Notes under the pieces: generated by a model | What the model saw: the letters and a program-made list of their open reading frames with translations, nothing else | Databases searched by the model: none | Told to the model about the DNA's origin: nothing | Source of the DNA: a virus | Reading direction: 5' to 3' (one strand) | Length of the DNA: 40,590 nucleotides | IMG/VR virus record: IMGVR_UViG_3300027917_000083 | Span: 1-40,590 of that record | Shown here: one piece after another, positions 1-39,024 of the stretch | Layout of the letters: each line of letters starts with the position of its first letter | Numbering within the stretch: position 1 is the first letter of the stretch | Program-made: the position numbers and the translations under genes

Positions 1-240
1 CAGCCGGACCGCTCGCCGATGTCGGCCAGCTGACGGCCAGCTGACGGCCAGCTGACGGCCAGCTGACGGCCAGGACGGCCAGCTGACGGCCAGCCGGACC
101 GCTCGCCGATGTCGGCCAGGACGGCCAGCCGGACGATTTTGACAATCTGACGAAAAACAATTTGACCGCTCGCCGATCGTGAGCGACTATTGAGTAGTCG
201 GCCAGGACGGCCAGCTGACGGCCAGGACGGCCAGCCGGAA
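1..240. repeat. Composite short-unit tandem repeat array
   Basis: Units that all begin CAG and end GGC are strung together. An 11-base unit (CAGCTGACGGC) is repeated head to tail at 27-70 and again at 80-90. A 9-base unit (CAGGACGGC) occurs at 71-79, 117-125 and twice more after 205. A 26-base unit at 1-26 recurs at 91-116, giving a higher-order period of 90. Unit lengths are not multiples of three, so coding is unlikely. The array could be replication iterons, a packaging or terminal region, or protein-binding sites; the sequence does not decide. Confidence 0.85.
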
Positions 241-3241: not shown

Positions 3242-3380
3242 AGCAGAATGGCCGGAATCCCCGGTTCACGAGAACCCCGAATGGGAAGCGATGCAACACC
3301 TGGAGCTGATGCTATTGGGAAAGCAGATTGCAGGCGACTATGGTTTCTTTATCCCAGACGACGTACCAGATGAACGATGA
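3210..3380 (+). CDS. Small acidic hypothetical protein (56 aa)
   Basis: ATG at 3210 lies about eight bases after AGGG and inside the end of the previous gene (32-base overlap); the ORF ends in ATGA with the release-factor-like gene at 3377. The product is acidic (many Glu/Asp, Pro-Glu-Ser-Pro motif) with one amphipathic helix (about residues 28-42). The longer in-frame extension upstream reads through the zinc-hook gene and is not plausible. No family recognised. Confidence 0.55.
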   Translation: MTSEQTIFDVEAEWPESPVHENPEWEAMQHLELMLLGKQIAGDYGFFIPDDVPDER

Positions 3381-3772
3381 ACATTCCAAACGAACACCTG
3401 AGCATCGAACGCATCCGTGGCAGAGGCCCGGGCGGGCAGCATCGGAACAAGACCGCGAGTTGTGTCAGAGTGACACACCTACCAACTGGTATCGTGGTCC
3501 AGTCCGATACGCGTTGTCAACACACGTCCTTGCGAAAGGCGATGAAGGCATTAACCAAGGCAATCCGAGCCGCCGAGAAGCGAGAGAAGCAGGCGAAGGC
3601 GAAGGCCGAACGCGACGATCGGATTGCGAACGAAACAACCGTGCGAACGTACGATCAGCGACGGAACAAGGTGAAGGACCACCGCACCGGGCGTGAAGAC
3701 CGCTTCACCGAAGTCGTCAAGGGACGAACACTCCAAGAATTTCTGGACGAGGCACTGTGGGACAACGTGTAA
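3377..3772 (+). CDS. Release-factor-like GGQ protein (131 aa)
   Basis: Carries the peptidyl-tRNA hydrolysis domain of class I release factors: Gly-Pro-Gly-Gly-Gln at residues 17-21, followed by the family pattern Asn-Lys-Thr-x-Ser-x-Val-Arg-Val-Thr-His-x-Pro-Thr-Gly-Ile, a charged helix (about 60-85), and a C-terminal block Val-Arg-Thr-Tyr...Lys-Asp-His-Arg-Thr-Gly as in RF1/RF2 after the GGQ domain. At 131 residues it lacks the N-terminal and stop-codon-reading parts of RF1/RF2 (about 360 residues), so it resembles ArfB/ICT1-type ribosome rescue factors in content. Unlike ArfB it ends in an acidic, not basic, tail. Likely acts on ribosome-bound peptidyl-tRNA. Coupled by ATGA to the upstream gene. 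Confidence 0.85.
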   Translation: MNIPNEHLSIERIRGRGPGGQHRNKTASCVRVTHLPTGIVVQSDTRCQHTSLRKAMKALTKAIRAAEKREKQAKAKAERDDRIANETTVRTYDQRRNKVKDHRTGREDRFTEVVKGRTLQEFLDEALWDNV

Positions 3773-4677: not shown

Positions 4678-5157
4678 ATGAAGTGTGCAAAGATTACAAG
4701 CCGAGGGCAGTGTAACCGTCCCGCGATGGAGGGCAGTCACTACTGCAACCTCCACGCGAAGAACGAAGACCTCATCACTGCCTACAAGCTGAGTGATCCC
4801 CAGCTCACCGAAGATGTTAAACACCACGCACGTGCGTCTTTGGCAGACATCTCACAGCAGGTGGTCCTCATGCGAGCCTTGGTTCAGCGACGTTTGAACA
4901 TGGCTGGTGATGACCCTGCTTCGCAAATCAACGCAATGAACTTCGCGGCTGGCCAGCTGGCGTCGATCGTCAAATCAACAGAGACGATGGTGAAGCTGGC
5001 ACGCGAAAGCGGAGATATGCTTTCGAGAGTCGAGGTCGAGGAGCTTGTCGACAAGGTGGTGGATATTGTCGGCGAAGAATTGAAAGCAGGAAACGTAGAC
5101 AACGCGGTTACCGATCGTATCGCACGCCGCCTCAATGAAGAACTTTCCGACGAGTAA
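4678..5157 (+). CDS. Zinc-binding protein, candidate small terminase (159 aa)
   Basis: ATG follows a GGAG site by seven bases; the in-frame TTG at 4666 lies on that site and is rejected. N-terminal Cys-x7-Cys and Tyr-Cys-Asn-Leu-His form a compact zinc-binding motif (Cys3, Cys11, then Cys/His near residues 23-26), as seen in several small phage packaging and DNA-binding proteins. The rest is helical with Ala/Glu heptads (about 45-105) and an acidic C-terminus. Size, helical make-up and a position a few genes before the large terminase make a small terminase subunit plausible, but a transcription factor is an alternative. Confidence 0.6.
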   Translation: MKCAKITSRGQCNRPAMEGSHYCNLHAKNEDLITAYKLSDPQLTEDVKHHARASLADISQQVVLMRALVQRRLNMAGDDPASQINAMNFAAGQLASIVKSTETMVKLARESGDMLSRVEVEELVDKVVDIVGEELKAGNVDNAVTDRIARRLNEELSDE

Positions 5158-5168
5158 GGGAGAAATAT

Positions 5169-5357
5169 ATGGCTAAGAGCATCTTTGCGTCGAAGACGTT
5201 TTGGTTCAACGCTTTGACTCTGGCGGGTGCTGCCGTGGCAGCTATCGCAGAGAGTCAGGTGATTGCTGACAACCCCGCTGCCGCTGGTGCAGTGTTGGTT
5301 ATCACGTCAATCGTGAACCTGGGATTGCGACTTGTCACCGACAAGCCAATCAAGTAA
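5169..5357 (+). CDS. Holin-like membrane protein (62 aa)
   Basis: GGGAG seven bases before ATG. The layout is that of small phage holins: a basic N-terminus with Ser-Lys-Thr-Phe-Trp-Phe-Asn, a first membrane helix (about residues 13-27), a short polar link with an Asp-Asn-Pro turn, a second helix (about 36-52) and a tail Arg-Leu-Val-Thr-Asp-Lys-Pro-Ile. That ending is common in a widespread family of putative holins. It would form lesions in the inner membrane to end infection. It precedes a set of secreted proteins, which fits a lysis role. Confidence 0.7.
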   Translation: MAKSIFASKTFWFNALTLAGAAVAAIAESQVIADNPAAAGAVLVITSIVNLGLRLVTDKPIK

Positions 5358-5508
5358 CCCCGCCTCGCACGCGAAAACGTGTCGCCGCTTCGGTGGTGGC
5401 ACTCATGGCGGGAACAGATTAGTACCCAAGGCCGTCGAAATCCACGGTACAAGATGGGAGCATTACCCATCCCCGCCTCTTTACTGAAAACCCTGTTTGG
5501 TGAATATC

Positions 5509-6210
5509 ATGAACAAGAACATCATGGCACTGTTGCTCACCGTTCTGTCAGCACTCGGCGGAGCTGCGACATACGACGAAGTGAAGAATGCCACGCCGCC
5601 GCCGAAGATCGAATTGATCGGTCCCACGTACGTGCAAGTCGGTGAGCTGGCAAAGTTTACCTTTCACGCTCGCAAGGTCGAATGGCTAGTACCGACCGAG
5701 GACTCCTCACCCGTATCACCTGAGTCGGTGGTCATGTCCTTCCGTCTTCCTGGCGAGTATGATCTTGTTGTGTCGGGACTTGTCGATAACACTGTGCAAC
5801 TTGTGAAGCACAAAATCCACGTCGAGGGACTCGCCCCTGTTCCCGTCCCCGACGTGGTTGAGCCAACGGACGAACCGACTCCTCAACCGGTACCCGATGA
5901 CTTGGTCGACAAGAACGAACTCACCGATCTGGTGCGACAGTGGTGCGAGGAAGCAAACGCTCCCGCTGATACTTGTCGGCAACTCGCGGACAACTTCATT
6001 AAAACCGCGAGCACTAGCAACACACTCGATGATCTTGTTCGTGACACCAGCAAAGCAAACAGCATGGTAGATCAAACCGGCGTCCGTGACGTGTTAACAA
6101 AGATCCAAGTTTGGATGATTGAAAACTTGACCGGTCAATCATTCGACGAGCACAAGTGTGCTTGGGACGCAATCGGTCAGGGTCTTCTTGAATACACGGA
6201 AAGCAAATGA
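5509..6210 (+). CDS. Secreted PKD-like domain protein (233 aa)
   Basis: Begins at ATG 5509; upstream TTG and GTG codons in frame are weaker. Residues 1-20 look like a signal peptide (Leu-Leu-Leu-Thr-Val-Leu core, Ala-rich end). Residues about 33-108 fit a PKD/immunoglobulin-like beta sandwich: Val-Gly-Glu-Leu-Ala-Lys-Phe near the start, a Trp-Leu-Val-Pro strand and Pro-Gly-Glu-Tyr-Asp-Leu-Val-Val later. A Pro/Asp-rich linker (110-135) joins a helical C-terminal domain with two Cys residues. Probably exported and binding surface polymer or protein. It is coupled by ATGA to the next gene. Exact function unknown. Confidence 0.7.
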   Translation: MNKNIMALLLTVLSALGGAATYDEVKNATPPPKIELIGPTYVQVGELAKFTFHARKVEWLVPTEDSSPVSPESVVMSFRLPGEYDLVVSGLVDNTVQLVKHKIHVEGLAPVPVPDVVEPTDEPTPQPVPDDLVDKNELTDLVRQWCEEANAPADTCRQLADNFIKTASTSNTLDDLVRDTSKANSMVDQTGVRDVLTKIQVWMIENLTGQSFDEHKCAWDAIGQGLLEYTESK

Positions 6211-6410
6211 GCCGGATTCTGAATCTTCTTGCATCGGTAGACCCGGTGCCTACTCCGAGCGACCCTGAGTTTCAGGATTACACTCTGGCAGAAAAGCGTC
6301 TTATCAATAAGTCTGGGCAGAGCAAGTTGAAACTACTCAAGTTCTATCGCCGCGTTAAAGGACGACCAATGGTGATGAGTGGGGCTCATCACGCAGCCAC
6401 TATCAATTAA
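6207..6410 (+). CDS. Small basic protein with FYRxxKGR motif (67 aa)
   Basis: Translation is coupled to the PKD-like gene by an ATGA overlap. The N-terminal half is Pro/Asp-rich; the C-terminal half is basic with Leu-Lys-Phe-Tyr-Arg-Arg-Val-Lys-Gly-Arg-Pro. A similar block (Leu-Arg-Phe-Tyr-Arg-Lys-Arg-Lys-Gly-Arg) occurs in the gene at 8067, which closes the same cassette, so the two may be partial paralogs binding the same partner. No known family. Confidence 0.65.
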   Translation: MSRILNLLASVDPVPTPSDPEFQDYTLAEKRLINKSGQSKLKLLKFYRRVKGRPMVMSGAHHAATIN

Positions 6411-6428
6411 CTGTAAAGGCCCACCACC

Positions 6429-7286
6429 ATGTTTCGAGCATTTGTGCTTGGATGGCTAATCGCCGTCCCGCTGACACCGTCGATTTACACGACTGGCACC
6501 ACCTGTGTCCCGTGTCCCGAAGAATTTAAGACTGCCGGTGAAGGCAAGGCTTACCTGCTGACGCACAACTACACCAAGATGACTGGGAAGCAACTGCAAC
6601 CTATGTCGCAAGGTGGGGCTCCGTCATGCGGTGGGGCTGCGATGGCGAAAGCTCTGGAGATTTTGCACGGCGTGCCGTTTTCGGCGGAATACTGCTACGG
6701 AAAGTCACGGACCTACATTCCGATCTGGCAGCGGCTAGGTGCAGGAACCTTCTGTGGCTTTGTCGTTCGATCAGCCGAGGAACACGGTGTGCTCCCGGCG
6801 GCGAATTACGCTGCTCTTGGCGAAGACTTGTCGGTGTACTCTGCAAAGCGAGCCGCCGACTACGGTCTACGTGGACCTCCGGAGTCGTTGGATGGGATTG
6901 CCGCACTCTACAAGTCACAAGGTTACTACCACATCCATGACTGGGCCGAGCTGAGAGGGGCGATTGCCAAGGGATATCCGGTGATTGTCGGGAGTTCCGT
7001 GAGTTATGGACCAACTACCGGACAAGTTAAAGATAGGGATGGAACACTTAGGCGACGTTGGTGGGGCCGATGGGCACACGCGATGTGCATCATTGGAGTC
7101 GACGACCGCGAAGGAAAGCAAGCCGCGTGTATCCTGAACTCATGGGGACCAGATTGGGTGAGTGGACCCAAGCGGTTCAACGAGCCGAACGGCACATTCT
7201 GGGGCAAAAAGAAAGACATCCAGAAAATGATTGACAGCGGTGACTGTTACGCCATCCGACCTGTACGAGGCTTGCGGACAAGATGA
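6429..7286 (+). CDS. Secreted papain-like cysteine peptidase (285 aa)
   Basis: Residues 1-20 form a signal-peptide-like hydrophobic start, followed by a Cys-Val-Pro-Cys pair (26-29). The core fits a papain-like (C1-type) fold: a Gln-Gly-x-x-x-Ser-Cys-Gly-Gly-Ala block with likely nucleophile Cys67, a Tyr-Pro-Val-Ile-Val strand (183-187), His217 in Trp-Ala-His-Ala-Met and Asn237 in Asn-Ser-Trp-Gly, the usual Cys/His/Asn triad order with Gln61 as oxyanion candidate. It lacks the long propeptide of cellular papains. It could cut envelope proteins or peptide cross-links during lysis, or act against host defences. The next gene, a thioredoxin-like protein, overlaps by four bases and might keep the thiol active. 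Confidence 0.8.
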   Translation: MFRAFVLGWLIAVPLTPSIYTTGTTCVPCPEEFKTAGEGKAYLLTHNYTKMTGKQLQPMSQGGAPSCGGAAMAKALEILHGVPFSAEYCYGKSRTYIPIWQRLGAGTFCGFVVRSAEEHGVLPAANYAALGEDLSVYSAKRAADYGLRGPPESLDGIAALYKSQGYYHIHDWAELRGAIAKGYPVIVGSSVSYGPTTGQVKDRDGTLRRRWWGRWAHAMCIIGVDDREGKQAACILNSWGPDWVSGPKRFNEPNGTFWGKKKDIQKMIDSGDCYAIRPVRGLRTR

Positions 7287-7822
7287 GAAGGCTGACCTAT
7301 GTTTCGATTGTATTTGCGGTTACGACGTGTGTGGCGTTCGCCCAGACCCCCGATGGAGAAGGTAACCTTGTCACTCCCGATTCTCGCGTCGTGGATCGAC
7401 AGCTTGTATATGACATCGGAATCACCGAAGCGACCGCTGAGGAACCTGCTCCGAAAGTTGCTCCCGAGGGCAAGGCGGAGAAGCTAGTCGTCGTATCGGC
7501 GACATGGTGTATCCCGTGTCGGACGTATGCGGTCGTCTGCAAGGAACTGAAAGCAGAAGGCTACGATGTCGAATACATCTACGTTGACACCAAAGTGGGC
7601 GAGGAGAAGCTGGCGAAGTACAGTAACATCAAACTCGGCAAGTCCGACAAGATCAATTACTACTCTGCCTACCCGACAAGTTTCTTCATCCGCGATGGTG
7701 TCATCATCAAGAAACTGGAAGGTGTGAAGTCACGCAAGACAGTGCTTGATACACTATGGAAAGACGAGGAGGCCAAGAACGTGATTGACAAGATTCGGGA
7801 CAGGCTTCCGTGGAACAACTGA
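7283..7822 (+). CDS. Exported thioredoxin-like protein (179 aa)
   Basis: A clear Sec signal peptide (residues 1-20, cut likely after Ala-Phe-Ala) is followed by a linker and a thioredoxin fold: strand Leu-Val-Val-Val-Ser-Ala-Thr-Trp-Cys-Ile-Pro-Cys with redox pair Cys76/Cys79, a following helix, strand Glu-Tyr-Ile-Tyr-Val-Asp, and the cis-proline motif Tyr-Pro-Thr (Pro131) before Phe-Phe-Ile. Export and the CxxC suggest a periplasmic thiol oxidoreductase. ATGA overlap with the cysteine-peptidase gene argues for joint expression. Phage thioredoxins are normally cytoplasmic, so an exported one is unusual. Confidence 0.85.
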   Translation: MRRLTYVSIVFAVTTCVAFAQTPDGEGNLVTPDSRVVDRQLVYDIGITEATAEEPAPKVAPEGKAEKLVVVSATWCIPCRTYAVVCKELKAEGYDVEYIYVDTKVGEEKLAKYSNIKLGKSDKINYYSAYPTSFFIRDGVIIKKLEGVKSRKTVLDTLWKDEEAKNVIDKIRDRLPWNN

Positions 7823-8070
7823 TTACTGACGGACTGTGGGTCGGAGCAATCACTGTTCTGCTCTGCACGTCCGAGATCGCTCAACGCCTTCGTGATTTTG
7901 TGAGACCTCGCACGAAGGTACTGGAGTGCTGCTTTTGCACTTCCTGGTGGGTCTCGCTGCTCGTCGACCCGAGCATGACATTACCCGCAACGGTCGCAGT
8001 TGGAAATATCGCAGTCTTGCTGATCCACTGGAGTTTGTCAACATACCAAACAGAGGAGGACCAAACTTGA
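7810..8070 (+). CDS. Cys-rich membrane protein, DUF1360-like (86 aa)
   Basis: Starts at GTG 7810, overlapping the thioredoxin-like gene by 13 bases. Two hydrophobic segments (about residues 8-21 and 57-78) flank a Cys-Cys-Phe-Cys-Thr-Ser-Trp-Trp motif (about 40-47) that recalls the CPFC-x-x-FW signature of small DUF1360-type membrane proteins. The neighbouring thioredoxin-like protein could act on these cysteines. Function unknown; membrane location is well supported by composition. Confidence 0.65.
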   Translation: MEQLITDGLWVGAITVLLCTSEIAQRLRDFVRPRTKVLECCFCTSWWVSLLVDPSMTLPATVAVGNIAVLLIHWSLSTYQTEEDQT

Positions 8071-8504
8071 ACCTACCAAAGCAACGAATCTATCGTGCCC
8101 TGGTCAAGAGCGGAACCTGTAAGCCCGAGCACCTGAAAGAGATCGACCGCAAGCTGAACTACGACCGTGAGGTACAGCAAGAGTTCCTACGCTTCTATCG
8201 AAAGCGAAAGGGACGGCTGTTTACCGGGCTTCGTTCGTTGGTCAATTGGGTCATCATGCACCGTGAGGAGATCATGACGATTCTCGGAATCGCTGTGATG
8301 TTCTTGGACGAGGAGCCGGACCACGCGGAGAAGCCTTCGATGACGACCGAGACTCCAAGTGTCGTCAAGCCTGTTGTGCTTCCGCCGAAGGTCGATGACC
8401 CCGAGGAAGACAGCGAGCCAACTCCTCCCGCACCTATCTTCGACGGCTGGGCCGATGAAGACGAGGACGAAGACGAAGACGAAGACGAGGACGACCAAGA
8501 GTGA
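8067..8504 (+). CDS. Acidic-tailed membrane-associated protein (145 aa)
   Basis: TTG start at 8067 is chosen because a strong GAGGAGG site lies eight bases upstream and the codon overlaps the previous stop (TTGA); the longer open frame back to 7926 reads through the preceding gene. N-terminal half is basic and helical with the Phe-Tyr-Arg-Lys-Arg-Lys-Gly-Arg motif shared with the 6207 gene. A hydrophobic helix (about 72-86) follows, then a Pro/Val linker and a long Asp/Glu tail (about 127-145) of alternating Glu-Asp. It ends GTGA-coupled to the terminase, so its dose is tied to packaging. No family recognised. Confidence 0.65.
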   Translation: MNLPKQRIYRALVKSGTCKPEHLKEIDRKLNYDREVQQEFLRFYRKRKGRLFTGLRSLVNWVIMHREEIMTILGIAVMFLDEEPDHAEKPSMTTETPSVVKPVVLPPKVDDPEEDSEPTPPAPIFDGWADEDEDEDEDEDEDDQE

Positions 8505-10159
8505 AGTTCTATCTCGGCCAGCGAATGAGCCGAGGTTTGGTGGATAAGACTCTCACATCTTGCACAAGATGGGCCGAGCACCGGATTCATATGCCGAATC
8601 CGTTTCCGGGCCTGATGACTTTCGACCGATTCCCTTGGCAGAAAGAAATCCTGAACATCGACGAAGGAATCGTGACCGTCAAAAAGGCGGCACAGATTGG
8701 CTTCTCGGTGGCAGGACTCGTACGTGCATTGTTCGTTGTGTCCGAACTGGAACGCGACGTGTTGTACGTTCTGCCTACGCAGGGACTCGCTGGAGACTTT
8801 TCAAAGGGACGCCTCGACGCGTTGGTTGAACTGTCTCCTCAACTGAATGACCTATTCAAGAAAGGCAACTCTGTCGGCTTGAAGGTCACGAACAAACGAT
8901 CCAACATTTACATCAGAGGCTCCGTGTCTTCACGGGGTCTTGTTTCCGTTCCGGTATCATCGGCGATCATCGACGAGTACGACCGGTGTGCGGACAACAC
9001 CTACGACCTTGTGACCGAACGTCTGTCCGGCCAAGAGGTCAAGTACCTGTTCTCGCTTTCGACGCCAACGCTCCCTGAGTTCGGAATCGACAAGCAGTTC
9101 AGCAACGGAACACAAGAGGAGTTTCACTTCAAATGCCCGTCGTGTGGCAGACTGGAGGCACTCCGCTGGCCCAACAATGTCATCATTCGAGGAGAGCATC
9201 ACAACGATCCCGACTGTGACTTGACCTACTACTTCTGCACGCAATGCAAGGCCGAGCTGCCTCATGCAGGTAAGCAGGAATGGCTACGGGACTCGGTCTG
9301 GGTACCCCGGGTCAAGATTCAGGGGCACCGATCCTTTCACATCAGCCAAATGTATTCGACCACTGTGTCGCCCGGGGATATGGCGAGAGCCCACTTCAAG
9401 TCCCAACTGAGCGATCTTGCGGCGGTCGAGTTCAAAAACCAGAAATTGGGCGAGCCTCACATCGTCGAAGGTGCCCGGTTGACGGACAAGTTACTGGTAG
9501 AGTGCAAAGGTGACCACAAGAGCGGAGACAACCCTCCTGCGGACGGCTCTCGGCAAATTTGTATCGGAATCGACGTTGGTACGTTCTTGGATGTCGCGAT
9601 CGTGGAATACCTCTACGACGCTGACCCGGGACGCGAACCATACGAGAAATCACGAGCAAAATTGCTCCACACGCTGCGAATCCCACAGGACGAGTGGCGA
9701 CAACTGGAAGACGTGATGCGGACGTGGCAAGTACAACACGCCTGCGTCGACTTCCAGCCCGACACCGTGAACGCCCGACGCTTTTGTCGTAGGTTCATGG
9801 GATATGCGTCGATGGTGCAATACCGCCGAGGCACAATCGGAAACGAGATCAAGGAAACAAAGGACGAACACGACGTGCCGTGTCTGACGGTTGACCGAAC
9901 GGTCTTCCTCGACATGGTGCTCCGACGCTTCCACAAGAAACGAATCACGATCCCGTACGATGTCCGTGCTGTGTACCTGGAACACATGAAGGCACCTATC
10001 CGAACATATGAATTGGACGAACTCGGACTACCACGAGGGGTCTATAAGTCGATCGCCGACGATCACTTTGCACACGCGATGGCGTACGCCGAGATCGCAC
10101 ACTTTCGAGCTTACGTCCGGTCGACAGGACGAACGATCAAACCTGGAGAGAGCTACTAA
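8501..10159 (+). CDS. Terminase large subunit, GpA family (552 aa)
   Basis: Packaging ATPase and nuclease. Visible motifs: adenine-binding Phe-Pro-Trp-Gln (44-47), a Walker A variant Lys-Lys-Ala-Ala-Gln-Ile-Gly-Phe-Ser (61-69), Walker B Ile-Ile-Asp-Glu-Tyr-Asp (156-161), coupling motif Ser-Leu-Ser-Thr-Pro-Thr (185-190), a zinc ribbon with Cys212/215 and Cys246/249 typical of lambda gpA-type terminases, the GpA-type stretch Gly-His-Arg-Ser-Phe-His-Ile and Phe-Lys-Asn-Gln-Lys-Leu-Gly-Glu-Pro, and an RNase H-like nuclease starting at Ile-Gly-Ile-Asp358-Val-Gly. GTG start overlaps the previous stop by GTGA; ATG 8525 is an alternative. Works with the portal encoded next. Confidence 0.92.
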   Translation: MKFYLGQRMSRGLVDKTLTSCTRWAEHRIHMPNPFPGLMTFDRFPWQKEILNIDEGIVTVKKAAQIGFSVAGLVRALFVVSELERDVLYVLPTQGLAGDFSKGRLDALVELSPQLNDLFKKGNSVGLKVTNKRSNIYIRGSVSSRGLVSVPVSSAIIDEYDRCADNTYDLVTERLSGQEVKYLFSLSTPTLPEFGIDKQFSNGTQEEFHFKCPSCGRLEALRWPNNVIIRGEHHNDPDCDLTYYFCTQCKAELPHAGKQEWLRDSVWVPRVKIQGHRSFHISQMYSTTVSPGDMARAHFKSQLSDLAAVEFKNQKLGEPHIVEGARLTDKLLVECKGDHKSGDNPPADGSRQICIGIDVGTFLDVAIVEYLYDADPGREPYEKSRAKLLHTLRIPQDEWRQLEDVMRTWQVQHACVDFQPDTVNARRFCRRFMGYASMVQYRRGTIGNEIKETKDEHDVPCLTVDRTVFLDMVLRRFHKKRITIPYDVRAVYLEHMKAPIRTYELDELGLPRGVYKSIADDHFAHAMAYAEIAHFRAYVRSTGRTIKPGESY

Positions 10160-18769: not shown

Positions 18770-20395
18770 ATGACGCTTTCAATCAGCAGTGCGAACTACA
18801 ATACCGTTTGGGGTGTTGGTGGGGGCGGTACTTGGCAAGACTGGGGTGCCGGTGGTGGTAGTGCTGCTAACTCCGACATTTTCGTCTACGGTTCGAGCCG
18901 TGCTCGTAAGGTGTCTAATGGCATCAAGGGATTTGGGAAGGTAGCTGGTGGAGGCGGCGGTGAAGATTGGACCGGACGTGTCGTTCAACAGCTATGGCTG
19001 GTCACAGCCGGTGTTAACCTTCTGAACACCCGTGCCAACGGAGGAGTTGCCATTCGTGTCGAAGATACATCTGGTAATATCAGCGATTGGTACGTTGATG
19101 GAAGTGACACATATACCGGAGGATGGCGAAACGCAATCGTTGATTTGGACTTGCCCGAAAGTGCGAACAACGGCACGGCGGCTGACCTAACAGCTGTGTA
19201 TGCTGTTGGGATGGTCTGGGACATGACCGCCGGTGTGGGTGGTGGTGACCCTAACTGCTATGTTGACCGGTTGGCATACTGGCCGAACACAGGGATTGTT
19301 GTAACTGGAGACACTCTTGGACCGACACCTCCAACAAACAACCAGTTTATTGAACACCTTGAATTCTGGTCGGAGGATAGTTCCGGTGCGTGGCCACTGA
19401 AAGGATTGGTAACAACCGTCGACGGTGTCACGACTTGTATTCCGAAGTTCGTTTTGTCTCCTGGCTCTGGAGGGTTCTACTCGACCGATGAACGGGTTGT
19501 ATTCCGCGATCTCGTTTACGACGATGGTACGAATGTCCGTTCTGCCGTACCTGAAATTGGGTTTGAAAGTGGGGCCTCTGAGACAGACCCGATCTCTTTC
19601 ACTCGTTTGTACGTCTTGGCCGAATCGGACCCTGACATTACGGCTTCCCCTGCTGGGCGGATTTGGGACTTCTCGACCGCGAGTGACCTGACGCTCGACA
19701 CCTGTCAAATCATTGGTTTCAACGGTACGAATGGTGTGCAACTCGGAGCAGCGACCAACACTATCTCGTTCACATCTTTTGTAGAGTGCGGACAGGTTCA
19801 AGATACTGGTGCTGAAATCCGTGGCTGTACATTCAGGAACACGACGGACGCTGACGGTGCATACCAGTGGACCACCAGTACGGACATGGCTGACTGTCGA
19901 TTCTTCTCGGATGGCACCGGACACGGGATTGACATTGCGTCTGCTCCGACAGACCCTACCACCACAAACTTTGATAATATCGTCGCTGTGAGTTTCGGAG
20001 CAAACGACACTGCAAACGCATTCGTCGATAACAACACGGGACACGATGTTCTCATTGCCGCATTGAATGGATCATCAGGTATCACGGTAAACACAACCAC
20101 AAACACTGCGGTGCAAACGTCTGTAAATGTTACCTTCAACGGTATCGTGAGCGGAAGCCGGTTGTATATCGAAGCAGCGGAAACGGTTGGGACAGTTACC
20201 GTTGGTGACGAGCTAGAGAATGTTTCAGTCACCACTGATCCTTACACCTACGTCCACTCTTACGAGGGTGACCTGGATATTACATACAACGTTCGCAGAG
20301 GTACCACTGCTCCGCTCTACAAACCAGTGGAAGGCAGCGGTACGATCGGTGCCACAGGGGTGACGTTCTTTATCCAGCAAGTGGCAGATGAATAA
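18770..20395 (+). CDS. Beta-rich appendage protein, copy 1 (541 aa)
   Basis: GTGGAG seven bases before ATG. N-terminal Gly-rich jelly-roll-like section (about 1-190) with a Ser-Arg-Ala-Arg-Lys-Val-Ser-Asn-Gly-Ile-Lys-Gly motif and Val-Trp-Asp-Met-Thr-Ala-Gly-Val-Gly-Gly-Gly-Asp-Pro-Asn-Cys. A following right-handed-helix-like section has short Asn/Thr/Cys turns (about 290-440), then a C-terminal beta domain ending Phe-Ile-Gln-Gln-Val-Ala-Asp-Glu. It is a tandem paralog of the next gene, with the C-terminal 170 residues most alike. Probably a tail fibre, spike or receptor-binding protein. Confidence 0.7.
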   Translation: MTLSISSANYNTVWGVGGGGTWQDWGAGGGSAANSDIFVYGSSRARKVSNGIKGFGKVAGGGGGEDWTGRVVQQLWLVTAGVNLLNTRANGGVAIRVEDTSGNISDWYVDGSDTYTGGWRNAIVDLDLPESANNGTAADLTAVYAVGMVWDMTAGVGGGDPNCYVDRLAYWPNTGIVVTGDTLGPTPPTNNQFIEHLEFWSEDSSGAWPLKGLVTTVDGVTTCIPKFVLSPGSGGFYSTDERVVFRDLVYDDGTNVRSAVPEIGFESGASETDPISFTRLYVLAESDPDITASPAGRIWDFSTASDLTLDTCQIIGFNGTNGVQLGAATNTISFTSFVECGQVQDTGAEIRGCTFRNTTDADGAYQWTTSTDMADCRFFSDGTGHGIDIASAPTDPTTTNFDNIVAVSFGANDTANAFVDNNTGHDVLIAALNGSSGITVNTTTNTAVQTSVNVTFNGIVSGSRLYIEAAETVGTVTVGDELENVSVTTDPYTYVHSYEGDLDITYNVRRGTTAPLYKPVEGSGTIGATGVTFFIQQVADE

Positions 20396-21981
20396 TGGCA
20401 ATTACTGTATCCGGTTACACAAACGACACGGCTACCGGAGGTGGAACGTGGTTAGACTACGGTGGCGGTGGAGGTAGCGGTGCTAACACTGACGTTTTCC
20501 TGTCTTCCACAGGTTCACGTGCTCGTAAAGTCTCAAACGGTATCAAAGGATTCGCATTCGATCTAGGAGCGTCTGGAACAGACATCTCCGGAGATGTGGT
20601 TGCTGTCCGCTGGCTCGTTACCGGTGGTATTGGTTTGCTAGATACTCTTGCGAACTCAGGGGTGGTGTTGAGAGTTCAAGACACCAGCGGGAACTATAGT
20701 GATTGGGCGATTGATGGTAGTGATACATACGCCGGTGGATGGAAAGTATCGACGGTCTCTATGTCCAAGACCCCGACAAGTAACAGCGGAACAGCCGCGA
20801 CACTAACAGCTGCGAGATACATCGGAATCGTCTGGGACATGACCGCTGGTGTGGGTGGCGGTGACCCTAACTGTTACATTGACATGATTAGTCGTTGGCC
20901 CGATGCAGGTTTGACTATCAGTGGAAACTCTACCGCCTTGGTAGCCGACCTACAAGCGTGGGATGACGCGACTTCTCCAGCACCAGCTCTCAAAGGCGTG
21001 TTCGAGACCATCGCTGGATTCACCCGCTCAAACGCTCCGCTTATCCTGACACCTGACGCCTCTGGCTTCATCAGCACTGGGGAGCGTTTGGTATTCAGAG
21101 ACCCAACATACTATGATGGTACGAACACAGACTCCGCGTTGTCTGCACAAGGTATCACAAGTTCGGATGCCGACTCGATCAACTTCACTCGTATGTTGTT
21201 ACTTGCTTGGGCTACCCCGGGAGTAACAACATCGAAGCCAAGGTCGCTTGATTTTTCAAGTGCTGGTGATTTCAACTTGGACACTTGTCTAGTCTACGGA
21301 TTTGACGATACTGTTGCGATTGAACTGGGAGGCACTGGTAACACTTGTAGCTTCACCTCGTTCTTCAACTGTGGACAAATCTCAGACACCGGGTGTGTTA
21401 TCTCCGACTGCGACTTCTATAACACGACAGACGCAGATGGAGCCTACCTGTGGACTACCAGCACGGACATGGTTGACTGTCGATTCTTCTCGGATGGCAC
21501 CGGGCACGGGATCGACATGGCATCCGCCCCTACTGACCCAAGTACCACTGACTTCGATAACATCGTCGCGGTGAGCTATGGGGCAAATGACACTGCAAAC
21601 GCGTTCGTTGATAACAACACTGGGCATGACGTGTTGATTGCATCATTGAACGGATCGACCGGTATCACAGTAAACACAACCACGAACACCACCGTACAGG
21701 CTTCGGTCAACGTTGTCTTCAACGGTATTGTGAGCGGGAGCCGACTATACATCGAAGCAGCGGAGACGGTCGGATCAGTCACAATCGGTGACGAGCTACT
21801 CAACGTACAAGTTAATACGGACCCATACACCTACGTCCACTCCTACGAAGGTGAATTGGATGTCACGTACAATGTAAGAAATGCAAGTCCGCCACCTCCA
21901 TACTACAAAGCTGCTGGCGGGACGGGTACTATCTCAGCATTAGGAGTGTCCTTCAACATTCAACAGGTGCTCGATGAGTAA
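20395..21981 (+). CDS. Beta-rich appendage protein, copy 2 (528 aa)
   Basis: TAATG overlap with copy 1. Same order of blocks as the preceding gene: a Gly-rich N-terminus, the Ser-Asn-Gly-Ile-Lys-Gly and Val-Trp-Asp-Met-Thr-Ala-Gly-Val-Gly-Gly-Gly-Asp-Pro motifs, an Asn/Thr/Cys-rich repeat region, and a nearly identical C-terminus from about residue 350 (Asp-Cys-Arg-Phe-Phe-Ser-Asp-Gly-Thr-Gly-His-Gly onward). The middle (about 190-330) has diverged. The pattern suggests duplication followed by diversification of the central, possibly receptor-facing part while the shared C-terminus stays constrained or is gene-converted. Confidence 0.7.
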   Translation: MAITVSGYTNDTATGGGTWLDYGGGGGSGANTDVFLSSTGSRARKVSNGIKGFAFDLGASGTDISGDVVAVRWLVTGGIGLLDTLANSGVVLRVQDTSGNYSDWAIDGSDTYAGGWKVSTVSMSKTPTSNSGTAATLTAARYIGIVWDMTAGVGGGDPNCYIDMISRWPDAGLTISGNSTALVADLQAWDDATSPAPALKGVFETIAGFTRSNAPLILTPDASGFISTGERLVFRDPTYYDGTNTDSALSAQGITSSDADSINFTRMLLLAWATPGVTTSKPRSLDFSSAGDFNLDTCLVYGFDDTVAIELGGTGNTCSFTSFFNCGQISDTGCVISDCDFYNTTDADGAYLWTTSTDMVDCRFFSDGTGHGIDMASAPTDPSTTDFDNIVAVSYGANDTANAFVDNNTGHDVLIASLNGSTGITVNTTTNTTVQASVNVVFNGIVSGSRLYIEAAETVGSVTIGDELLNVQVNTDPYTYVHSYEGELDVTYNVRNASPPPPYYKAAGGTGTISALGVSFNIQQVLDE

Positions 21982-22974: not shown

Positions 22975-23444
22975 TGGACCCTAGACTACCCCGCTGGATT
23001 ACGACTTCCTTGGGAATTCTTCTAAAACCGATCGTAGAAACGGACCTAGGCGTACAATTTTATATTGAAGGGGTCCACGAGGAGTCTGAGGGCGTTTTCC
23101 AGCAGGACTCCGTGGTCATGAGGGTCAACGGCCCTTGGTTCAATAACCGGACCGGCGAGGATCGAGTCGTTATCGAAATCATGCTGATGATTACCGACCT
23201 CATCACGACCAATGAAAACGCGTACAAGATTCTGAACGAAGCTGGTACGCTCGCAAATACACTTTCTGGAAACATCGCCATCAACCGGCACGGCGATGAA
23301 GACCCTGCCACCACTTATGGCATTCTTATCCCAGATCGGAACAGCCGGGAATTTGTGCGGGTTGTCAACTACGGGATGCTGGATAAAGACATGCAAGTCA
23401 AGCAGTGTGCCGTGATCGCAAAATACGAACTCTCTATCTGTTAA
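22974..23444 (+). CDS. Tail completion/terminator candidate (156 aa)
   Basis: TAATG overlap with the preceding gene. Small mixed alpha/beta protein with hydrophobic strands (Val-Val-Ile-Glu-Ile-Met-Leu-Met-Ile, about 64-72), a Glu-Asn-Ala-Tyr helix and a terminal strand Ala-Val-Ile-Ala-Lys-Tyr-Glu-Leu-Ser-Ile. Size and its place immediately before the tail tube genes fit a tail terminator, the gene normally found there. No sequence signature confirms it. Confidence 0.55.
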   Translation: MDPRLPRWITTSLGILLKPIVETDLGVQFYIEGVHEESEGVFQQDSVVMRVNGPWFNNRTGEDRVVIEIMLMITDLITTNENAYKILNEAGTLANTLSGNIAINRHGDEDPATTYGILIPDRNSREFVRVVNYGMLDKDMQVKQCAVIAKYELSIC

Positions 23445-23457
23445 GGGATAATACCTC

Positions 23458-24192
23458 ATGGCCAGAATCCAACTTCGTGACACCACCATCTTCATTCAAG
23501 ATGGTCTGTCTGGTACCGCCCTCGTCAATGACGTGGCGGGCATCGTTATCTCGGATGTCGACATTGATATCGACGCCGTAGCTCTGAACACCGACGTGAC
23601 CGATCAGGTTCCGGTTGGTGCTCGCTTCACCGCCGGTGACGCGACCGTTCACACCGTGACCGCTCGAACTCCAGGTTCGGGGACCACAACCAACATCACC
23701 TGGACGCCTGCGGCGACCGCGATCTTGGCTGAGGATGGAACCATCAACTTCCTGCCGCAACGCATCGAGATCAAGATCGGTGACGGCGACTTGAGCTGGA
23801 CCGAGGCTCGTAACTTTGAGTACGACCTCGACCGCGATCAACTCGACACCGTTCGCCAAGGCGAAGACGTGCCGGTCTCAGTTGACATGGCGTTCACCTT
23901 CGAGTACGTCACAACCGAGAGTGGCCAAGCCATCACCCCGGTCGACGCTCTCAAGCGAACTGGCGAAGCCAGCGAGTGGGTGTCGTCTTCAAGCGACTTG
24001 TGCGAGCCGTACGCGGTTGACGTTTACGTCATCCACAACGTGCCTTGCGGTACCGACTTCGACCAAGACTTCTTGTTCCCCGACTTCCGTTGGGAGTCGC
24101 TGGAATACTCGATTGCCGACGCGGCGATCAGTGTCAGCGGTCAATGCAACGTCACCGACGTTGTGACCACACGTGCTGCGAACATCACCTGA
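23458..24192 (+). CDS. Major tail tube protein, copy 1 (244 aa)
   Basis: Begins Met-Ala-Arg-Ile-Gln-Leu-Arg-Asp-Thr-Thr-Ile-Phe-Ile-Gln-Asp-Gly as does the next gene. The N-terminal variable part (about 25-95) is Thr/Val-rich beta; the rest is nearly identical between the copies and contains Lys-Ile-Gly-Asp-Gly-Asp-Leu-Ser-Trp-Thr-Glu, Val-Asp-Met-Ala-Phe-Thr-Phe-Glu-Tyr-Val and a Cys-Glu-Pro-Tyr-Ala-Val-Asp segment with Cys residues. Position between tail terminator and tail chaperone is that of the tube subunit. A 130-base run differs from the second copy at only one position. Confidence 0.8.
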   Translation: MARIQLRDTTIFIQDGLSGTALVNDVAGIVISDVDIDIDAVALNTDVTDQVPVGARFTAGDATVHTVTARTPGSGTTTNITWTPAATAILAEDGTINFLPQRIEIKIGDGDLSWTEARNFEYDLDRDQLDTVRQGEDVPVSVDMAFTFEYVTTESGQAITPVDALKRTGEASEWVSSSSDLCEPYAVDVYVIHNVPCGTDFDQDFLFPDFRWESLEYSIADAAISVSGQCNVTDVVTTRAANIT

Positions 24193-24235
24193 TCCGTAGC
24201 TTAACCTTTCACATCCTCTCAGGAGATACTACCTA

Positions 24236-24973
24236 ATGGCACGTATTCAACTTCGTGACACAACCATCTTCATCCAAGATGGTCTCAGCGGGACGGCGGC
24301 TACCAACGGCGTTGTAGCTGACTTGGCGACAACAGGTGCGATCGACACCATTGTCCTGAACACCGACGACACCGATCTGGTGCCGGTTGGTGCTCGCTTC
24401 CAGTTTGCAGGCGACTTGACCACGACCCACACGGTCACCGGTCGTACGCCTGCTTCCACTTCGCCGACGACCAGCATCGACTTCACGCCCGCCAAGAACG
24501 GAGCGTCTGGTGCTGCCGAGGCGATCACTTTCTATCCTCAACGCATCGAGATCAAGATCGGTGACGGCGACTTGAGTTGGACCGAAGCTCGCAACTTCGA
24601 GTATGACTTGGACCGTGACCAACTTGACACTGTGCGTCAAGGCGAAGACGTGCCGGTCTCAGTTGACATGGCTTTCACCTTCGAGTACGTCACAACCGAG
24701 AGTGGCCAAGCCATCACCCCGGTCGACGCTCTCAAGCGAACTGGCGAAGCCAGCGAGTGGGTGTCGTCTTCGGATGACCTTTGTGAACCGTACGCGGTTG
24801 ACATCTACGTCATCCACAACGTCCCTTGCGGAACGGACCAGGATCAAGACTTCCTGTTCCCCGACTTCCGCTGGGAGTCGTTGGAGTATTCGATTGCCGA
24901 CGCGGCGATCAGCGTTTCCGGACAGTGCAACGTTACGGACGTGGTAACCACACGTGCGACTGACATTGTCTGA
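24236..24973 (+). CDS. Major tail tube protein, copy 2 (245 aa)
   Basis: Tandem paralog of the previous gene with AGGAG ten bases before ATG. It differs in the N-terminal third (about residues 20-95, with Asp/Thr/Ala-rich changes) and a few positions near the end, and is otherwise the same. Two tube genes may build different zones or a mixed tube, as SPP1 does with two forms of one subunit; in this case the two forms are separate genes. A strong stem-loop follows its stop. Confidence 0.8.
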   Translation: MARIQLRDTTIFIQDGLSGTAATNGVVADLATTGAIDTIVLNTDDTDLVPVGARFQFAGDLTTTHTVTGRTPASTSPTTSIDFTPAKNGASGAAEAITFYPQRIEIKIGDGDLSWTEARNFEYDLDRDQLDTVRQGEDVPVSVDMAFTFEYVTTESGQAITPVDALKRTGEASEWVSSSDDLCEPYAVDIYVIHNVPCGTDQDQDFLFPDFRWESLEYSIADAAISVSGQCNVTDVVTTRATDIV

Positions 24974-36251: not shown

Positions 36252-36839
36252 ATGAAAGATTGCCGGAAGCGTCAAGTGGAGAGACGACAAGGCGAGACAA
36301 TGCACAGATGTATCAACAAGCAGGCCGATCAATATCGGCAACACGTTGACGCATCTATCTGCGACTCTTGCCCCGTCCGAGTCTTCATCGAACAAAAGAA
36401 AAAGAAAGAGGCGGCGAATCCAAAGTTGGAAAACGGTCTGCCCATCGTCCAACTTGGTAACTTGCCTCCATGTGAATTCCGACACAACGGACGGACTTGT
36501 GGTGTCACCGCCCTTCCTATTGACGAGGAGATTTGCAACCGTTGTGCGGCGGATACAAAGGATGCCGTCGCCAACCTCTTGAACAAGGCAGTGAACTATG
36601 CAACCGCTATGCGGAAATGGGTAGCGGCAGGAAGCCCAGTACGCACTGACGAGGAGATCAGTGCTATCTTTGATGAGCATTGCAACAAGTGTGCGATGTT
36701 CGATAAAGTGAGAGGAGTTTGTAATTCGTGTGGTTGCCCTGCGAGCAAAGACCAACCAGCCATCCGCAACAAGTTGAAGATGGCAACGGAGGCGTGCCCG
36801 TTGGGAAGGTTCCCAGCAAAGGTAGAAACAAATGCTTGA
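36252..36839 (+). CDS. Cys-rich zinc-binding-like protein (195 aa)
   Basis: Starts four bases after the tip gene stop, with AGGTGG further upstream. Contains at least 15 Cys in paired CxxC settings: Cys-Asp-Ser-Cys, Cys-Asn-Arg-Cys, Cys-Asn-Lys-Cys, Cys-Asn-Ser-Cys-Gly-Cys, and a C-terminal Thr-Glu-Ala-Cys-Pro-Leu-Gly. The Cys-Gly-Cys plus Cys-Pro-x-Gly end is a pattern I recall from small phage-encoded zinc proteins of unknown role downstream of tail genes. N-terminal half is basic (Lys/Gln/Arg). It could be a virion or assembly factor. Overlaps the next gene by eight bases. Confidence 0.6.
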   Translation: MKDCRKRQVERRQGETMHRCINKQADQYRQHVDASICDSCPVRVFIEQKKKKEAANPKLENGLPIVQLGNLPPCEFRHNGRTCGVTALPIDEEICNRCAADTKDAVANLLNKAVNYATAMRKWVAAGSPVRTDEEISAIFDEHCNKCAMFDKVRGVCNSCGCPASKDQPAIRNKLKMATEACPLGRFPAKVETNA

Positions 36840-37350
36840 GTGGATTCCCGCCTTCTTTGATAAGGCCACTGCTTTCTGTCCCCGCTTCGCAAAGGTGCCA
36901 CCTACAGATCGGATGGTAAAGTGGTCACGTTGCAAGCAAGGGACGCTACATGGTCCTGGGATTGTGTGGTACTGGCCACTGGTCACGGATGTCCAGCCTA
37001 TCGACGTTCGATGGAAGTCGCTCGTTACGTGCGTGCAGACAATCACGTTGGCAGATGGGACCACAGTCTCAGCCCGTACCCTTACGCGGTGGAAGCCAAA
37101 GGATGCGTTGAAGTGTGTGATCGAGGAAGAAGACTTCGCAGACACGGTTGCAGAGACAGCACAGTCGGTGTTGGTTGATGTGCTAGGTCCGATTCACCGA
37201 GAGCACCTACAAAAAGGCTCCGCCCTCAATGCCACCTTGACTATGGCAATGAGGGAGGAGCTGGTTGACATTGGCGTTGACGTGAAGAAGTGCAAGTTCA
37301 CCGAGCTGTGTGTCAGCCCAGCGTTCCGACTTATCAACGACGCTAGTTGA
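36832..37350 (+). CDS. SPFH/Band-7-like protein (172 aa)
   Basis: AAGG ten bases before ATG; overlaps the Cys-rich gene. The sequence follows the SPFH (stomatin/prohibitin/flotillin/HflK-C) domain: Gly-Pro-Gly-Ile-Val-Trp-Tyr-Trp-Pro-Leu with Val-Gln-Pro-Ile-Asp-Val-Arg (41-60), Thr-Ile-Thr-Leu-Ala-Asp-Gly-Thr-Thr-Val (70-79), Leu-Thr-Arg-Trp with a following Val-Ala-Glu-Thr helix, and the end motif Gly-Val-Asp-Val-Lys-Lys-Cys-Lys-Phe-Thr-Glu (148-158). It has only a weak N-terminal hydrophobic start and no long coiled coil, so it is a short version. Cellular relatives organise membrane microdomains and modulate proteases such as FtsH. A phage copy could act on membrane protease control or lysis timing (inference). 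Confidence 0.75.
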   Translation: MLEWIPAFFDKATAFCPRFAKVPPTDRMVKWSRCKQGTLHGPGIVWYWPLVTDVQPIDVRWKSLVTCVQTITLADGTTVSARTLTRWKPKDALKCVIEEEDFADTVAETAQSVLVDVLGPIHREHLQKGSALNATLTMAMREELVDIGVDVKKCKFTELCVSPAFRLINDAS

Positions 37351-37775: not shown

Positions 37776-38273
37776 CCGAGCACGAGGGAACGGGCATGGT
37801 ACGCCTTTGAAGGCGGCTTTGTCCATCATCCCGGTCACCAAGGCTTGTGTGTCCCTGGTAGGGTAGCTGAAAATGTTGTCATACATATCGTGGCCGAGCC
37901 AACATTGGATGAACGGAATGTCAAACTGTGAGTTGTGACACAACGGGATCAACCGTTTCTTTGGTGGTAGGTTCAAGTCTTGAAACCACTCCCACAACAT
38001 ATCCGCACCGCTGTACGGGTCAGGGCAACCAACCAAGTCTTCCACCTGGATGCCGTGTGCAGCAATCGCATCCTTGGTCATACGTTCCGGGTATTCCGGA
38101 TTCATGTTCAAGTAGAACGGATTGCAATCTTTGACTGGCTCCACGTGACAGTTGAGCGGGATGATCGCGATCTGGATGATCTCGTTCTCCCACGGCGTGC
38201 GTCCGGTGGTCTCAACATCGAGAGCCGCCAGGACGTGTTCGTTCATCGTGTACAGGCTTGTTGTTTCAGGCAT
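37659..38273 (-). CDS. DnaQ-like 3'-5' exonuclease (204 aa)
   Basis: DEDDh exonuclease with all residues visible: Asp19 and Glu21 in Leu-Asp-Val-Glu-Thr-Thr-Gly, Asp118 in His-Asn-Ser-Gln-Phe-Asp, and His182/Asp187 in Ala-His-Asp-Ala-Leu-Ala-Asp. Removes mismatched 3' ends or trims nucleic acid. The start at 38273 overlaps the upstream stop by eight bases; the in-frame ATG at 38312 would overlap more, and 38246 lacks a ribosome-binding site. It lies behind a nucleotide pyrophosphatase in the replication unit, so proofreading or DNA degradation for nucleotides are both possible. Confidence 0.9.
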   Translation of the reverse strand: MPETTSLYTMNEHVLAALDVETTGRTPWENEIIQIAIIPLNCHVEPVKDCNPFYLNMNPEYPERMTKDAIAAHGIQVEDLVGCPDPYSGADMLWEWFQDLNLPPKKRLIPLCHNSQFDIPFIQCWLGHDMYDNIFSYPTRDTQALVTGMMDKAAFKGVPCPFPRARLGVICEQLGIELDNAHDALADALACAALYKHILSREVL

Positions 38274-39024
38274 TGTTCGGAGCCTTGCGGACGTGGTAGA
38301 TGCGGATGACATCGTGGTTGCTGGTTTTTGAGGGGTGACTATAACCGTTCACACGAGTGTACGTGAAAGCACGATTACTACAGTCACAGACGTTGATAGG
38401 AAATTCAGAATTATCAACGCTGTGGATGATCCCCATCCGACCGTTGCGTAGTACCACCTCTTTGCCTACATCGTCAGACTTCAACTCGTAGGCACCGCCC
38501 CCGGCTGGTGTGTCGGACCACACAGTGAGTGTGCCGTCTTCGTGTGTCATGCTCGACACTTTCTCTGGTGGCTCGTAGTAGCGTCCCCTACCCGCACCGG
38601 CAGGGACTTCTTGCTCCTCAGTCAGCTCACGAGGCTTGAGGTTCGACGGCACCTGCTCGTACTTCTCATGGACTTCCTTGATCTTGTCGCCAACCGCCTT
38701 GATGTTCAAGTTCTGGTTGACCAGACGATCGTCCACCGAGCAATTGTGCATCTGTGCGTCCCGTAGGATCAACAGACCGGCGATCGCCTTCGTCACGTGA
38801 GGCAGGCCCGAGTCCGGGTCGATGTCTTCGCCCGCGATGAATTGCATCAGGTGGCGGATGGCAGCGTCCGCGTAGATGGTCTCGTTGACCTGCTCGCCAC
38901 GCCAGTTCCACGGTCCGTACTTGCGTGCCCCTTCCTCCAGACCGGCAGCGGTCTCCAGCAACGGAGCTAGTGGGAGGCGGGACAGGTTTGGCTTCACGGA
39001 GGCTACTCTATCTTTTGGATTCAT
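38266..39024 (-). CDS. dATP/dGTP diphosphohydrolase-like protein (252 aa)
   Basis: N-terminal 90 residues match the dATP/dGTP diphosphohydrolase N-terminal domain (DUF5664 type, MazG-related): Met-Asn-Pro-Lys-Asp-Arg at the start, Gly-Ala-Arg-Lys-Tyr-Gly-Pro-Trp-Asn-Trp-Arg (32-42), Ala-Ala-Ile-Arg-His-Leu-Met-Gln-Phe (54-62), Gly-Glu-Asp-Ile-Asp-Pro-Asp-Ser-Gly-Leu-Pro-His (65-76). It would cleave purine dNTPs to monophosphates. The C-terminal half is a different, beta-rich addition with two Cys (about 120-252) of no known family. ATGA overlap with the preceding gene. Such enzymes occur in phages that alter nucleotide pools, including 2-aminoadenine phages, but no PurZ is present in this window. 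Confidence 0.8.
   Translation of the reverse strand: MNPKDRVASVKPNLSRLPLAPLLETAAGLEEGARKYGPWNWRGEQVNETIYADAAIRHLMQFIAGEDIDPDSGLPHVTKAIAGLLILRDAQMHNCSVDDRLVNQNLNIKAVGDKIKEVHEKYEQVPSNLKPRELTEEQEVPAGAGRGRYYEPPEKVSSMTHEDGTLTVWSDTPAGGGAYELKSDDVGKEVVLRNGRMGIIHSVDNSEFPINVCDCSNRAFTYTRVNGYSHPSKTSNHDVIRIYHVRKAPNNA

Follow-up and report, generated by a model that had tools for sequence, protein, structure and literature searches.

A candidate envelope-attack cassette of uncultivated phages that joins a papain-like peptidase to a thioredoxin and a DUF1360-like membrane protein

Introduction

Phage lysis usually depends on a holin and a murein hydrolase, to which a spanin is added in diderm hosts. A gene cluster on the plus strand of a 40,590-nt IMG/VR record (the whole stretch of DNA analysed here, referred to as the window) raises the question of whether a different set of proteins could serve to breach a host envelope. 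The cluster, at positions 5169–8504 between a TerS-like gene and TerL, encodes a holin-like protein, a PKD-like protein, a papain-like cysteine peptidase, a thioredoxin (Trx) and a cysteine-bearing membrane protein. The original prediction saw in it a possible new lysis or envelope-attack cassette, which we consider plausible; to a late cassette for breaching the host envelope, with or without a normal endolysin elsewhere, we would give an even chance.

Results

Gene layout

All genes of the cluster, and those that flank it, lie on the plus strand. The upstream neighbor (4678–5157, 159 aa) matches no family in Pfam, PHROG or NCBIfam and is called TerS-like from its position only, a 50% identical homologue occupying the same place in one related contig (L009). 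The downstream boundary is formed by a gpA-type TerL (8501–10159; PF05876, 1.1e-26; phrog_675, 8.8e-75), which directly follows a 145-aa transmembrane (TM) protein (8067–8504, TTG start) with a short central hydrophobic segment, an acidic tail and homologues in the corresponding position of L002, L005, L006 and L009. The ORFs lie where the original prediction had placed them, and its gene list lacked one member, a 67-codon ORF (p67; 6207–6410) between the PKD-like and papain-like genes. This ORF has a homologue in none of the relatives searched and may not be a gene. All the other ORFs have homologues in other phage contigs, which places them as genes far beyond chance.

The genes had been described as coupled throughout. 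This is the case at five junctions, which overlap by 4–13 nt: PKD-like to p67 and papain-like to Trx (both ATGA), Trx to DUF1360-like, DUF1360-like to TM protein (TTGA), and TM protein to TerL (GTGA). It does not extend to the 151-nt gap between the holin-like and PKD-like genes or to the 18-nt gap between p67 and the papain-like gene. Promoter and terminator scans returned counts no greater than chance, and tRNA and Rfam searches returned no match. The record begins with short-period repeats (window 1–235, with 1–29 equal to 91–119), and positions 787–1240 are also repeat-rich; the left end may be a repeat-broken assembly.

Conservation of the block in related phages

Relatives were retrieved as uncultivated IMG/VR phage contigs using TerL, papain and DUF1360 queries; one of them, L010, starts inside TerL and is uninformative for the cassette. 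The order papain–Trx–DUF1360–TM is common to the window and five further contigs (L002, L005, L006, L009 and L019), with identities to the window of 36–48% for the papain-like protein, 42–55% for the DUF1360-like protein and 53–71% for TerL. Holin-like and PKD-like genes lie upstream in all three contigs that reach that far (L006, L009 and L019), and L009 reproduces the TerS-to-TerL order of the window without interruption. TerL directly follows the TM protein gene in four of the relatives. In L019, the most divergent (TerL 53%), four genes intervene before TerL, yet the holin–PKD–papain–Trx–DUF1360–TM block is whole, which argues that it moves as a unit; its TM protein was assigned by position and hydrophobic segment, without a significant match. 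A block that stays intact while its distance from TerL varies is most simply explained as a functional unit. Among the genes inserted in L019 (L019:4182–4895), a 168-aa protein looks sulfotransferase-like by eye and has no Pfam match.

Two aspects of this conservation speak for a role in release: the gene order is kept in six phages down to 53% TerL identity, and the cassettes of the window and of L009 sit between a TerS-like gene and TerL. The same interval holds the spanin genes in T7. On the other side, L006 carries two extra genes, one of them LamG-like, between the PKD-like and papain-like genes, so the two halves of the cassette may be separate modules. The same conservation bears on the idea that the set alters the envelope during infection rather than at its end, by superinfection exclusion or surface remodeling. 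By hydropathy, the PKD-like, papain-like, Trx and DUF1360-like proteins are each either exported or located in a membrane, which fits such a role, and the lytic role is itself putative. However, all six phages carry these genes near those for packaging, and the block is conserved down to 53% TerL identity, while exclusion genes usually belong to the variable, accessory part of a genome; we therefore regard exclusion or remodeling as quite improbable.

The papain-like peptidase

The central gene (6429–7286) encodes a 285-aa papain-like cysteine peptidase, predicted to be exported by an N-terminal hydrophobic signal. The catalytic residues Cys67, His217 and Asn237 had been named in advance; these and Gln61 are invariant in an alignment of the window protein and its five homologues, with Asn237 opening an invariant NSWG motif. 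Profile matches comprise xylellain (3ois, 1.4e-4) and, weakly, cathepsins. An AF2 model built from four sequences (pLDDT 72.8) has a papain fold, with xylellain 3ois_B as its best match by Foldseek and VIA-align (Z 18.2, rmsd 3.8, 229 aligned residues) and many cathepsin structures next (Z about 16). Against a viral structure library, the model scores highest with peptidase C1 proteins from giant viruses and Caudovirales and far lower with a mycobacteriophage lysin A. The PF00112 score of 15.8 bits lies below the cut-off of 20.7, so the protein is named papain-like and not assigned to PF00112.

Neither a Pfam match to CHAP or NlpC/P60 nor a wall-binding domain was seen in the peptidase. Papain-fold murein hydrolases are absent among the PDB fold matches listed; their absence there does not argue against a common fold. 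To our knowledge, C1A peptidases cleave proteins, and we know of none that cleaves peptidoglycan; the predicted target is therefore more likely an envelope protein than murein.

Control of such an enzyme by a classical papain propeptide appears unlikely from its sequence, because the stretch before the oxyanion Gln is short (52–61 residues in five of the six homologues and 91 in L019) and no classical papain propeptide or inhibitory-propeptide family was matched. In each papain homologue another Cys follows the catalytic His by 3–5 residues, at shifting positions (window 7077–7095), and might act as a redox partner to the active site.

Thioredoxin and the DUF1360-like protein

The next gene (7283–7822, 179 aa) encodes a thioredoxin with a WCIPC motif, which scores above the PF00085 cut-off (24.4 versus 23.5 bits) and is predicted to be exported from a signal-like N terminus with a hydrophobic segment at residues 4–20, in keeping with the exported thioredoxin-like protein first proposed. 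An N-terminal hydrophobic segment is found by hydropathy on the PKD-like, papain-like and Trx proteins in every member measured. CxxC variants among the members are CIPC, CGPC, CAPC and CSWC, and the cis-Pro is kept in the relatives. The divergent L019 protein keeps the CxxC motif and matches PF13098 (E 1.6e-4); the possibility that its slot holds an unrelated, swapped-in thioredoxin was rejected, since hhalign groups it with the family (95.7%). At 19409–19603, inside a tail-like protein, tblastn gave another Trx-like match that is confined to the part before the CxxC; it was judged a chance match because low-complexity filtering was off.

The cysteine-rich membrane protein of the original prediction proves to be an 86-aa DUF1360-like protein (7810–8070) with two hydrophobic segments and three cysteines, C19 and the C40-x-x-C43 pair, that are invariant in six homologues. 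PF07098 was matched in all four members scanned (best 7.6e-4). The window protein reaches 11.3 bits, below the PF07098 cut-off of 21; the L019 homologue, 39% identical to it, reaches 24.6 bits, above that cut-off, so the window protein can be called DUF1360-like by homology.

Trx and DUF1360-like proteins could also constitute a separate redox pair, engaged in periplasmic disulfide reduction or folding and merely neighboring the peptidase. Their ORFs overlap in all six phages, by 4–112 nt, whereas the papain–Trx interval ranges between –4 and +71 nt, and the Trx of L019 is divergent. The pair nevertheless adjoins the papain-like gene in all six, and we regard a purely separate function as unlikely.

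The holin-like and PKD-like proteins

The first gene of the cassette (5169–5357) encodes a 62-aa protein with hydrophobic segments at residues 11–27 and 37–53. Homologues occupy the same place in L006 and L009 (about 52% identity) and in L019 (35%). In size, in its two TM segments and in its position beside packaging genes, the protein has the features expected of holins, which are small, have at least two TM segments and are encoded in the late region. The holin-like label is thus borne out in these respects but not by family membership, as the protein is unmatched in Pfam, PHROGs, NCBIfam and phage records, holins being very diverse.

The PKD/Ig-like protein (5509–6210, 233 aa), exported or membrane-anchored, is read from an ATG at 5509, with an alternative TTG start at 5497, and has homologues in L006, L009 and L019. 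It consists of an N-terminal hydrophobic segment, a beta-sandwich at about residues 34–107, a Pro-rich linker and a C-terminal five-helix domain. The AF2 model has a pLDDT of 66.9; for residues 28–111 the best fold matches are the PKD domains of ColG, at a weak Z of 6.7, and the C-terminal helical domain is barely covered by the fold search. Of the secreted PKD-like protein envisaged at first, the N-terminal TM or signal segment and the beta-sandwich are thus upheld, but the PKD assignment itself is weak.

Search for a conventional endolysin

No standard endolysin had been recognized in the window, and this holds by Pfam and PHROG across the 40.6-kb record, for which no completeness estimate exists; Pfam likewise finds none among 48 proteins of five relatives, whose records are probably fragments. 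Within the cassette no known murein-hydrolase family was matched, in which it departs from a canonical lysis cassette. One PHROG match carries a lysis name: PHROG 2252, ‘endolysin; inhibits RNA polymerase’ (3.2e-40), falls on the minus-strand ORF 38269–39024, which Pfam identifies as a dATP/dGTP diphosphohydrolase N-terminal domain (PF18909, 1.1e-24). We rejected it as an endolysin, the cluster being misnamed; the name is a trap for automatic lysis annotation.

This result admits two forms of a release function. In the first, the papain-like enzyme takes the place of the endolysin, opening a thin or protein-rich wall unaided, and is kept reduced by Trx. The empty endolysin searches agree with it, as does the existence of exported signal-peptide endolysins (fOg44; PMC6116005), but the records are probably fragments, no host was matched in genome contigs, and the fold is nearest to protein-cutting cathepsins and xylellain, with no wall-binding domain seen; we think replacement decidedly improbable. 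The full version, a new type of lysis in which the murein endolysin gives way to an exported cathepsin-like peptidase whose activity is maintained by Trx and the DUF1360-like protein, we consider very improbable.

In the second form, the cassette has an accessory role at the envelope, as an analogue of a spanin or LysB or in the removal of an S-layer or surface proteins, beside an ordinary endolysin in a missing part of the genome. The records all lack completeness estimates and defined ends, and the window itself ends in replication genes. Lysis of diderms usually proceeds in two steps that include an additional envelope function (PMC6116005), and a cathepsin-like fold suits protein targets. 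Set against this, lysis genes often cluster, and an endolysin is found in this cluster in none of the six contigs. An accessory module is, tentatively, a real possibility.

Elsewhere in the window, an RF-1 domain protein with a GGQ motif (3377–3772, plus strand; PF00472, 9.6e-25) is a phage-encoded peptidyl-tRNA hydrolase of the release-factor-like kind, and the tail module ends with a Band_7/SPFH protein (36832–37350, plus strand; PF01145, 4.1e-11) that is present also in relatives. The tail region contains two tandem gene duplications (23438–24970 and 18770–21978), with 300-nt stretches 90% identical and 781 nt apart and paralogous proteins of 528 and 541 aa.

Discussion

Comparison with known systems

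The cassette resembles the holin–endolysin–spanin cassettes of lambda and T7 in combining a small two-TM protein with exported, envelope-acting proteins near terminase genes; it differs in that no murein hydrolase is recognized and a C1A-like peptidase, a thioredoxin and a DUF1360-like protein are present. With the secreted or SAR endolysins fOg44 Lys44 and P1 Lyz it shares Sec-type export of a putative lytic enzyme. P1 Lyz is described as controlled by thiol-disulfide isomerization in the work of Xu et al. (2005), as cited in PMC6116005. That enzyme is a muramidase that rearranges its own disulfides, whereas here a separate exported Trx and a membrane thiol protein accompany a papain-fold enzyme. 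The same 2018 review of phage envelope breaching describes signal-peptide and SAR endolysins, and the word ‘protease’ is absent from its text (PMC6116005).

Papain-like superfamily members such as CHAP and NlpC/P60 are common in phage lysins (PMC10318531), but the present enzyme sides with the C1A peptidases, both by its NSWG motif and by its best fold matches over the whole domain. With xylellain (3OIS) and cathepsins it shares the Q-C-H-N set, the NSWG motif and the fold; it differs in being viral, in its identity of about 20% and in matching no classical propeptide. Annotated phages yielded one match below E = 1e-3, the ‘endolysin’ of Alicyclobacillus phage MMB025 (PV686781.1), whose papain-like domain is 29% identical over residues 113–258. 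Unlike the window protein, it is a 753-aa protein of a Gram-positive phage with a long further part after its N-terminal papain-like region, and no thioredoxin or DUF1360 is annotated beside it. A tblastn search of phage records with the holin-like, DUF1360-like and PKD-like proteins returned nothing, and the part of the literature searched yielded no phage lysis cassette that combines a papain peptidase with a thioredoxin. As far as could be searched, the parts each have precedents and their combination has none, in agreement with its initial description as unfamiliar.

A possible mechanism

We infer a purpose in lysis or release, within which the peptidase would be a client of Trx and the thiol relay would run as follows. 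The two-TM holin-like protein would act on the cytoplasmic membrane, and the papain-like peptidase, exported via its N-terminal signal, would cleave an envelope or periplasmic protein. The exported Trx would serve the peptidase thiol, a role suggested by the lack of a papain-type propeptide match and by action outside the cytoplasm, or else the disulfides of the peptidase’s targets. The DUF1360-like membrane protein, through its three cysteines, would recharge Trx, and the PKD-like protein probably anchors to the envelope surface or positions the attack there. Weighing against release as the function, no holin family model covers the small protein, and no murein-cutting C1A enzyme is known to us.

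The source of two relatives also bears on the redox component. They come from metagenome 3300035698, the only one found in papers among the IMG taxon numbers of four relatives, which was used in a study of bacteria from the anoxic zone of Ace Lake. Thiols may stay reduced there without difficulty, which would count against the proposed reading. Papain and TerL profile searches for a prophage or host found no relative among genome contigs.

If the proposed function is correct, the cassette would point to hosts with a protein-dependent envelope. Redox control would be added to the known means by which phages time lysis, and DUF1360, a family of unknown function, would gain a testable role.
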